A DNA stretch of 64,000 nucleotides, from assembly GCA_902794035.1 (NCBI GenBank), contig CADBFN010000003.1:452-64451 (forward strand), written 5' to 3'. The notes below the pieces were generated by a model. That model saw only the letters and a program-made list of their open reading frames with translations. It had not been told where the DNA came from and did not search any database. The translations under genes were made by a program, and so were the position numbers. Position 1 is the first letter of the stretch. The number at the start of each line of letters is the position of its first letter. Positions 12,763 through 54,790 of this stretch are shown here, piece by piece. This stretch comes from an uncultured bacterium (GTDB lineage: Bacteria; Cyanobacteriota; Vampirovibrionia; Gastranaerophilales; Gastranaerophilaceae).

Positions 12763-13248
12763 ATGATTAAGTATGAAAAAGCGGTTAATATTGATAAGTT
12801 AATTACTCTATCTTCTCTTATTTGGCATGAGTATTGGAAGGATTATCTTTCAGATGAACAAATAGAATATATGATAGAGAAATTTCAGTCAAAAGATGCT
12901 ATAGAAAATCAAATAAAAAATGAAAATTATACATATTATTATATATATTTAAACCGCGAAATGGTTGGTTATATTGGACTTGCCAATAAGGAGGATTATT
13001 TATTTCTTTCAAAATTTTATTTGAAAAAAGAAGTGCGTCATCAGGGCGTTGGGACAAAAACTTTTCAATTTATTAAAGATACTGCTAAATTCCAAAAATA
13101 TAACAGAATTGTTTTGACAGTAAACAAGGGAAACGTTAATAGTATAAATGCTTATAAAAAATGGGGCTTTAATATTATTGATTCAGTTGTAACTGACATA
13201 GGCATGGGTTTTGTTATGGATGATTATATTATGGAGTATAAATTCTAA
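12763..13248 (+). CDS. GNAT family N-acetyltransferase
   Basis: A 161-residue protein with the complete GNAT pattern: an N-terminal AVNIDKLITLSSLIWHEYW, YYIYLNREMVGYIGLA as the central strand, LSKFYLKKEVRHQGVGTKTF as the acetyl-CoA pyrophosphate loop, and a closing VNKGNVNSINAYKKWGFNI. The substrate is unknown. Its TAA stop forms the first bases of the 19-bp terminal inverted repeat of the downstream hairpin element, so that element abuts the gene exactly. Confidence 0.9.
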   Translation: MIKYEKAVNIDKLITLSSLIWHEYWKDYLSDEQIEYMIEKFQSKDAIENQIKNENYTYYYIYLNREMVGYIGLANKEDYLFLSKFYLKKEVRHQGVGTKTFQFIKDTAKFQKYNRIVLTVNKGNVNSINAYKKWGFNIIDSVVTDIGMGFVMDDYIMEYKF

Positions 13249-13725
13249 TAATCTATATTATAGGAAGTTTTTAAGAGTTATAAATGCATGTTAGTTCATT
13301 TCTTTTCTTTTGTTTGCGAGGCAAAAGAAAAGAAATGAACCAAAGAAAAGAAAACTTCGCTGATTACAATACCGCCTTCGGCGGCATAAGTACAATACCG
13401 CCTTCGGCGGCATAAGACCGCTTGCGCGGTAACATGCGTTTTGCCTTTCAGGCAAAAATCTCTTAGCACGGCTAAGGACAACGCCGTGCGCTTGTTAAGC
13501 TTATATCAAAGGCGCCGTTGTCTTAGGCGCCTGATTGATTTTTGTCCGTCAGGACAAAAACGTATGTACAATTTGTACTTATATCTTATGAGCGGAGCAA
13601 TGCCTTTGAGCATTGCTATAATTAGCGTGTTTTTCTTTTCTGTCTGCTTTTCTTTTTGCATCGCAATCAAAAAGAAAAGCAGACTATTAAAATAGAAGAT
13701 TTTAATTTCCTATAATATAGATTAT
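13248..13725. mobile_element. MITE-like element: 19-bp terminal inverted repeats with many internal hairpins
   Basis: ATAATCTATATTATAGGAA at 13248-13266 is the exact reverse complement of 13707-13725. Between them are a 19-bp perfect hairpin (13294-13312 with 13322-13340), a 26-bp tandem duplication (13365-13390, 13391-13416) whose units each contain CCGCC-TTC-GGCGG, further short hairpins (ACCGC/GCGGT, TTTGCC/GGCAAA, AGGCGCC/GGCGCCT, TTTTGTCC/GGACAAAA, GCAATGC/GCATTGC) and a 17-bp perfect hairpin near the right end (13642-13658 with 13668-13684). No transposase or convincing gene lies inside; the open frames crossing it simply read through hairpin arms. It could be a non-autonomous transposable element or a structured RNA locus. 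Confidence 0.75.
13365..13416. repeat. 26-bp perfect tandem duplication inside the hairpin element
   Basis: The unit at 13365-13390 begins TACAATACCGCC and ends GGCATAAG. It is repeated exactly at 13391-13416. Each copy carries a CCGCC-TTC-GGCGG hairpin. Confidence 0.9.
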
Positions 13726-53521: not shown

Positions 53522-54790
53522 ATGAGCGAATTTCAAGCATATTTTACCAATGACGGATCAGTAGGATTATATAGCAAGGATTATGATGATATCTATCATA
53601 GCGCCTCCGGGGCTCTTACAGAAGCATATGAGAAGTTTGTCTGTCCTGTAAACTGGGATAATCTTTTAAAATATGATGACATAAAAGTATTGGATATATG
53701 TTATGGAATTGGATACAATACTAAAAGTTTTTTAAATTATATTTTTGAAAATAAAAAAAAATTATTAAAAATAAAAAATGAAATAAAAAAAATTTTTTTC
53801 ATAGACGAGAATATCGATACGATACATACTGATAATAATTATAGCTTAAATAATCGAAACAATATCGATAAGATATATACCAATAATATTTTTAATAATA
53901 TTTCTGTAACAGCACTTGATAATGATGAAATTTTAACCGGATTATCTCCTTTTATTAAAACTGGTGTAAAAAATTTCAAAAAAAATCATGAGTTAATAGA
54001 TAAACTTAAACTAAACAAATATTTTTCAGATAAACCAGTTATTAATTATAAAATTAATAATTCAATAAATTATGAAATATTATCACAATTACTCGAAAAA
54101 AATCCCCAAATATTGAATAATGATGATTTATTAAAAGTTTTATCTGATAAATCAAATTCGTCTTATTTTATAGCCCATTTAAAGAATTTATTCTTGTCTA
54201 TGCATAAAAATACCTTTAAGAATATAAATCTCTTGAATTTACATAATATATATTATAGGTATCTAACTAATTGTTATAAAAGAGAACTAAAAGGCGCTTA
54301 TATCGAGAATATTGATTTTAACGTAAAAATTAATGATGCAAGACTATCGGTTAAAGAGGATAAAAATATATACAATTTAATTTTTTTAGATGCATTTACC
54401 CATTCAAAGTGTCCTTGCCTGTGGAGTTATGATTTTTTTAAAGAGCTTTATAATCATCTTTCTGAAGATGGAATGCTTTTAACATATTCATCTGCTGCAC
54501 AGATAAGAAGCGCAATGATTGCTGCAGGCTTTGCTGTTGGAAAAATTTTCAACACTCGTTTAAATAAATTTCAGGGAACAGTTGCAGTTAAAAATATCGA
54601 CTTAATAAAACACCCTCTGTCAGAGAGCGATTTAGGCCTGTTAAAAACTAAAGCGGGTATATTTTATCGTGATAGAAATTTATCAAGCCAAAATGAGGCT
54701 ATTATAATGGCTCATAAAACTGAAGTTGAAAACAGTAACCTTATGTCAAGTTCAATGTATCTCAAAACAAGGAGGAAAAATGTATTATGA
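53522..54790 (+). CDS. MnmC-like tRNA methyltransferase domain protein
   Basis: A 422-residue protein with the MnmC methyltransferase domain (DUF752) that methylates nm5-type U34 side chains in tRNA. Motif I is KVLDICYGIGYNTKSFLNY near residues 55-73. The catalytic half is intact: YNLIFLDAFTHSKCPCLWSY, LSEDGMLLTYSSAAQIRSAM and AAGFAVGKIF. Between the two halves lies an insert that contains two 17-codon in-frame direct-repeat copies (see 53810-53887) and Asn/Ile/Lys-rich low-complexity sequence. The gene overlaps the next one by 11 bases. Confidence 0.82.
   Translation: MSEFQAYFTNDGSVGLYSKDYDDIYHSASGALTEAYEKFVCPVNWDNLLKYDDIKVLDICYGIGYNTKSFLNYIFENKKKLLKIKNEIKKIFFIDENIDTIHTDNNYSLNNRNNIDKIYTNNIFNNISVTALDNDEILTGLSPFIKTGVKNFKKNHELIDKLKLNKYFSDKPVINYKINNSINYEILSQLLEKNPQILNNDDLLKVLSDKSNSSYFIAHLKNLFLSMHKNTFKNINLLNLHNIYYRYLTNCYKRELKGAYIENIDFNVKINDARLSVKEDKNIYNLIFLDAFTHSKCPCLWSYDFFKELYNHLSEDGMLLTYSSAAQIRSAMIAAGFAVGKIFNTRLNKFQGTVAVKNIDLIKHPLSESDLGLLKTKAGIFYRDRNLSSQNEAIIMAHKTEVENSNLMSSSMYLKTRRKNVL
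53810..53887 (+). repeat. In-frame direct repeats inside the MnmC-like gene
   Basis: Two 27-base copies start at 53810 and 53861, 51 bases (17 codons) apart; about 23 of 27 positions match. They begin AATATCGATA and encode NIDTIHTDN and NIDKIYTNN. A related sequence with the IHTDN codons occurs at 55154-55180 in the following gene. Confidence 0.75.

Follow-up and report, generated by a model that had tools for sequence, protein, structure and literature searches.

The 478-base segment at positions 13248–13725 of the window (the whole 64,000-nucleotide stretch of Gastranaerophilaceae DNA that was analyzed) is probably a copy of a non-coding, multicopy mobile element, bounded by inverted dif-like Xer sites and flipped by the XerC/XerD recombinases of the host. 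The elements constitute a family whose loci are polymorphic between species; their ends are dif-like and carry a central hexanucleotide (N6) that is matched within each copy, and at several orthologous loci their interiors are inverted between sister species. We infer that XerC/XerD catalyze this inversion. No prior description of these elements was found in the open-access literature searched, although an earlier one elsewhere is possible, and a search of that literature for Gastranaerophilales in connection with Xer or inverted repeats returned nothing relevant.

The ends and the chromosomal dif site

The two arms of the window copy, located at 13248–13266 (+ strand) and 13707–13725 (− strand), are exact reverse complements (19 of 19 positions) and lie 440 bp apart, as reported in the first-pass annotation. 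They form the only such inverted pair in the whole window (k = 19, gap of 150–1000), and none arose in 50 Markov-1 simulations of the window. The left end is a dif-like site with the XerD-type arm outside and the XerC-type arm inside, and comprises ATAA (13248–13251), the N6 TCTATA (13252–13257) and the XerC-type arm TTATAGGAA (13258–13266). The right end is the same site inverted, again with the XerC-type arm inside, and its N6 (13716–13721) reads TATAGA on the + strand and TCTATA on the − strand. The significant part of both ends is the dif-like core ATAA-N6-TTAT; in Xer sites, ATAA-centre-TTAT has been described as the conserved flank needed for XerC/XerD binding and cutting (PMC11705084). 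The outer part of the left end is decayed (TTCTA where TTTAC would be expected), and the decay of the outer arms in this copy counts against the XerC/XerD reading.

The setting of the element also agrees with the first-pass annotation. The left arm starts on the last base of the stop codon of an acetyltransferase gene (12763–13248), and the GC content of the element (0.374) is distinct from that of its flanks (0.286 and 0.312) and from that of the window (0.327). As a whole, the element has no assigned strand, and its interior contains nothing but short spurious ORFs.

The chromosomal dif site, TTTAC-ATAA-TATATA-TTAT-AGGTAT, was located at 54238–54262 on the − strand (TTTACATAATATATATTATAGGTAT on the + strand), inside the coding sequence (53522–54790) of a Methyltransf_30 (MnmC-type) protein, where the peptide reads LHNIYYRY. 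On first view the match at 54243 was taken for chance, since it lies within a gene, but conservation across congeners overturned this view: the core is invariant at the DNA level in 28 of 29 congeners, at one orthologous place, while the surrounding codons vary. Of the 15 genomes covered by a further search, 14 had one and only one occurrence of ACATAA-TATATA-TTAT. The site coincides with a local maximum of the cumulative GC skew. It is uninterrupted in 29 congeners, and the element copies are dispersed elsewhere.

Across the family, the copies end in TTTAC-ATAA-N6-TTAT-nGGwA in inverted orientation; N6 varies between copies and agrees at the two ends of one copy. In a listing restricted to pairs with no more than one mismatch, all 38 end pairs share the core ATAA-N6-TTAT; their N6 is identical in 36 cases and has a single mismatch in the other two. 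Without the mismatch filter, N6 matched exactly in 26 of 31 candidate pairs, versus an expectation of 3.4 of 31 on re-pairing and a maximum of 11 in 10,000 permutations. Four of the five non-matching pairs were spurious pairings, and the genuine one is L087. This copy (~86.4 kb) and L086 (~67.5 kb on contig C4 of G022) are 18.7 kb apart, and both are discordant, with ATAATA at the left, TATATG at the right and interiors in opposite orientations. The pattern looks as if a single crossover between two concordant elements had occurred, with the intervening segment inverted.

The consensus derived from 83 element ends, tttaC-ATAA-N6-TTAT-nnGwA, corresponds to the arms of dif, with the XerD-type arm outside and the XerC-type arm inside. 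The XerC-side trinucleotide of N6 matches the ATA of dif in 51 of these ends and is ATG in 18; the XerD side is variable, and the complete dif hexanucleotide TATATA occurs in none of the 83. Private spacers are not absolute, since N6 is AACATA in many copies of the genome to which the window belongs (G000). In the genera whose N6 ends in ATG (G046, G051 and G054), the XerC-proximal base differs from that of dif (TATATA), so that dif itself is an unlikely integration target. According to the proposed mechanism, the host XerC/XerD pair would synapse the two ends of an element and invert the segment between them. The central regions would then have to match, and N6 would otherwise be free to drift from dif and from that of other copies.

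Distribution, empty loci and inversion

The 1.79-Mb genome G000 contains 29 matches to the element and an estimated ~12–13 elements, with four complete copies and 17 half-copies at contig ends, of which those on C35 and C23 and those on C36 and C19 were joined by synteny. The copy search in relatives that the first-pass annotation had proposed gave matches in 22 of 46 congeners, and weaker matches extend to other families of the order. The elements range from ~280 to 740 bp in size, and the copies are scattered in chromosomal contigs. A hairpin-pattern search of the GTDB collection recovered 34 stretches, every one from an uncultured MAG that, to judge from the titles (RUG series, roe deer rumen), comes from a rumen sample; the first pattern tried on the genome contigs gave no matches. 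Among viral contigs, the element core had no match, and none of 29 end-pattern matches had a matched inverted partner.

At the window locus, the element is missing from four syntenic congeners. Filled and empty states are likewise mixed at 11 further loci (ten occupied in G022 and one in G000), which were compared across eight congeners. The element is therefore mobile, as the first-pass annotation had suspected; it had looked to relatives for a second copy or an empty site, and both were present there. Insertions are frequent in the T-tracts of intrinsic terminators, as in ..GGTCTTTT|ACATAA... Nearby empty sites read TA, GTAA or TATGTA, and one of them keeps a solo CATAA-ATAACA-TTACG. When empty, the window locus reads GCTA-AAATAAAAAG in G020 and TATGTA-AAATAAAAAG in G021 and G024, while at another locus (seg7) the filled TCT-TA[CATAA...TTATG]TA-AAAATG of G022 corresponds to the empty CCT-TA-AAAATG of G016. 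The long target-site duplication sought was not found at the loci compared; a duplication of TA is possible at some loci and absent at others. An explanation by inverted duplication of the target centre fits the window locus, seg3 and seg4, but fails at seg7 and for the G022 copy at the window locus, and is not claimed. In G024, beside the acetyltransferase end, a different palindromic repeat of the CCTCGCAATG type is present at the orthologous locus (L172, ~1340–1500), flanked by a direct AAACTAA duplication.

These insertion sites bear on an interpretation of the element as a MITE moved by a DDE transposase that targets TA (IS630/Tc1-mariner type), in which the terminal repeat starts at CATAA, TA is duplicated at the target, TA-TG-TA footprints remain after excision and the likeness to dif is a coincidence of AT-rich palindromes. 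The sequences of seg7 in G022 and G016 and of the window locus in G020 and G021/G024 fit such footprints, and the TA, GTAA or TATGTA remnants at the nearest empty sites could have been left by a transposon of this type. However, the ends used by a transposase are conserved between copies, whereas N6 varies between copies and matches within them. Moreover, the listed pairs have a spacer of exactly 6 bp, the arms equal those of the host dif, several copies lack a flanking TA, and inversion of a whole interior between fixed flanks would be unexpected, all of which renders this interpretation improbable. The MITE-like transposon proposed in the first-pass annotation thus holds in so far as the element is mobile, non-autonomous and provided with terminal inverted repeats, but not as an ordinary transposase-dependent MITE, given that N6 is variable and that no long target-site duplication was found at the loci compared. 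Its other suggestion, an attachment or integration site, came close to the mark, as the ends are dif-like Xer sites; the observation was right, and the link to dif and to inversion was overlooked.

The interior was compared in ten orthologous cases, six of which were inverted (four of them partially) and four in the same orientation. In local alignments with collinear flanks, the complete interior was reversed between L088 and L216 (G022 and G021; 411 bp, 85%) and between L003 and L081 (G000 and G022; 418 bp, 86%), while in L089/L223, L003/L266, L084/L244 and L092/L207 it was reversed over part of its length only. Since N6 is the same or nearly so at each locus, each of these cases goes back to one insertion that has since flipped, not to several insertion events. 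The inversion is one seen between species, over evolutionary time, and all of the genomes were treated as draft assemblies.

The genome itself encodes two full-length Xer-type proteins, both of which score far below the cut-offs for integron integrases. A third tyrosine recombinase (L166, G000:C2:67184), of 194 aa and FimB-like in size, scores with the XerA and tyrosine-type DNA invertase families, below their cut-offs. The existence of this protein counts against the XerC/XerD reading, since the elements could be inverted by it or by another tyrosine recombinase that shares the ATAA-N6-TTAT core. This alternative is nevertheless judged to have little likelihood: the arms beyond the core also equal those of the chromosomal dif, and the gene for the 194-aa protein adjoins an apparent phage terminase fragment.

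The hairpin interior

The hairpin-packed interior described in the first-pass annotation was recovered in all its parts. The left terminal hairpin (13294–13340, + strand) has a 19-bp stem, GTTCATTTCTTTTCTTTTG (arms at 13294–13312 and 13322–13340), carries TTGCGAG in its loop and is conserved across copies. The right terminal hairpin (13642–13684, − strand) has a 17-bp stem, GTCTGCTTTTCTTTTTG (arms at 13642–13658 and 13668–13684), with the same loop motif inverted. Adjoining the left hairpin, the purine tract recurs a third time as AAAGAAAAGAAAACT (13342–13356, + strand); this tract pairs with 13629–13641 as an inner long-range stem and, in other copies of the element, varies in step with the left stem. 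The 26-bp tandem duplication, containing the hairpin CCGCCTTCGGCGG (13365–13416, + strand), is a private expansion of the window copy, of which only a remnant occurs in L002/L026. A run of short GC-rich hairpins (13417–13618, no strand assigned) follows, and their pairing is kept by compensatory changes among copies.

The predicted fold energy lies ~14–15 SD below that of dinucleotide shuffles for both strands, whether treated as DNA or as RNA, and in the predicted fold of the single-stranded DNA the two ends of the element pair with each other. Among 17 aligned cores, 98.7% of the pair cells are paired, and two-sided changes were observed in 20 of 90 pairs, versus 4.3 in shuffles and 1–5 in slid controls. 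The terminal hairpin motif consists of the stem, the TTGCGA loop and the third purine tract, and all three strands covary between copies. The equal folding of the two strands, together with the flips in orientation relative to genes, renders a role at the DNA level likelier than an RNA gene, and we infer that the hairpin interior is selected at that level.

The terminal hairpin motif is widespread in the order, including loci of G063, G064 and G069 that lack dif-like ends. At L074, L075 and L110 (G069 and G063), it stands amid repeats of the GTCACTCTGAGCGAAGCGAAGAGTC or GTCATTGCGAAAAATGCGAAG type without such ends, and the terminal hairpin may therefore be an independent REP-like unit. The conserved TTGCGA loop and the covarying purine tract at these loci, as well as the position of the elements near terminators and gene 3' ends, which recalls REPs (PMC3733652), would suit a REP/BIME of the RAYT or IS200-IS605 type, whose hairpins are mobilized as single strands by a Y1 transposase and in which the dif-like ends hitch-hike secondarily. 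This account leaves the matched, variable N6 and the inversion unexplained, and is considered quite unlikely. The structured RNA suggested in the first-pass annotation, or a terminator array, can hardly be correct in spite of the strong, conserved fold with compensatory changes and the location downstream of terminators, since an Rfam search of the window returned just two tRNAs and no RNA family on the element, both strands fold equally well, the element is oriented differently with respect to its flanking genes in different species, and presence is polymorphic.

Spread and relation to known systems

New copies might arise by a route resembling that of CTXphi. In the model for this phage, a single strand carrying two inverted sites folds so that they make up a functional site, and homology is required on the XerC side only (PMC4246890). 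By analogy, a single strand of the element would fold so that its ends pair into one double-stranded dif-like site; XerC-type strand exchange would insert the folded strand, and replication would finish the process, as in CTXphi. Such a route is attractive but unproven, and a hairpin transposase would be an alternative means of producing new copies. That the family does move as a folded single strand, its paired ends serving host XerC as a dif-like duplex, is put forward tentatively, as a rather doubtful possibility; the family would then be the chromosomal, gene-free equivalent of the attP of CTXphi, and could plausibly stand midway between dif sites and the attC sites of integrons.

The closest kind of known system, of which the family is probably a non-coding, chromosomal relative, is represented by the dif modules of Acinetobacter (pdif/xrs, on Rep_3 plasmids), specifically those of the C type, in which the XerC sites are internal and inversion takes place between oppositely oriented pdif sites whose spacers are identical (PMC13141974, PMC11705084). 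The C-type modules and the elements have in common inverted dif-like sites, 6-bp spacers that vary between sites, and XerC arms inside. In contrast, the Acinetobacter modules are plasmid-borne and gene-carrying, and often have different end spacers, whereas the elements are chromosomal, scattered, gene-free and hairpin-packed, with matched spacers. The IMEX phages (CTXphi and VGJphi) use host XerCD and dif-like sites, in which homology to dif is largely confined to the XerC side of the centre, and in CTXphi the attP consists of two inverted sites on a single strand that is folded (PMC4246890, PMC5357621). They differ from the gene-free elements, which are located away from dif, in being phages, in carrying replication genes and in using dif as their integration site.

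The neisserial intergenic mosaic elements, in which dRS3 (ATTCCC-N8-GGGAAT) flanks small intergenic repeats, similarly combine inverted flanking sites and a conserved dyad with a variable centre; dRS3 differs in not being a dif site, and the text consulted reports no inversion of the dRS3 unit (PMC9778887). Like REP/BIME sequences and MITEs, the elements are short, palindromic, intergenic, multicopy and non-coding (PMC3733652). However, REP/BIMEs and MITEs lack Xer sites, a matched variable overlap region and site-specific inversion, and although the family resembles MITEs as a small, multicopy, non-coding element with terminal inverted repeats, its terminal repeat is not fixed among copies. 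Invertons are phase-variable segments that flip in situ between inverted sites of a tyrosine recombinase. The present elements, as far as seen, contain no promoter or gene switch, and are dispersed and multicopy. The elements do not fit integron attC sites, which are folded single strands recombined by IntI and associated with gene cassettes, given the lack of cassette genes in the interior and the low integron-integrase scores of the two host recombinases.

Xer recombination is known from chromosome dimer resolution, some phages and the Acinetobacter plasmid modules. If the XerC/XerD reading is correct, XerCD can drive the inversion of small elements across a bacterial chromosome. The family, with its private spacers, would supply many natural spacer variants with which the rules governing Xer pairing could be studied, and would bear on the origin of folded-DNA recombination sites (integron attC) from dif. 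On a practical level, many of the contig breaks in these genomes fall at the elements; in G000, the assembly breaks inside element copies at at least 17 contig ends, on contigs C1, C5, C7, C10, C12, C14, C17, C19, C23, C25, C26, C35, C36, C39 and C40.
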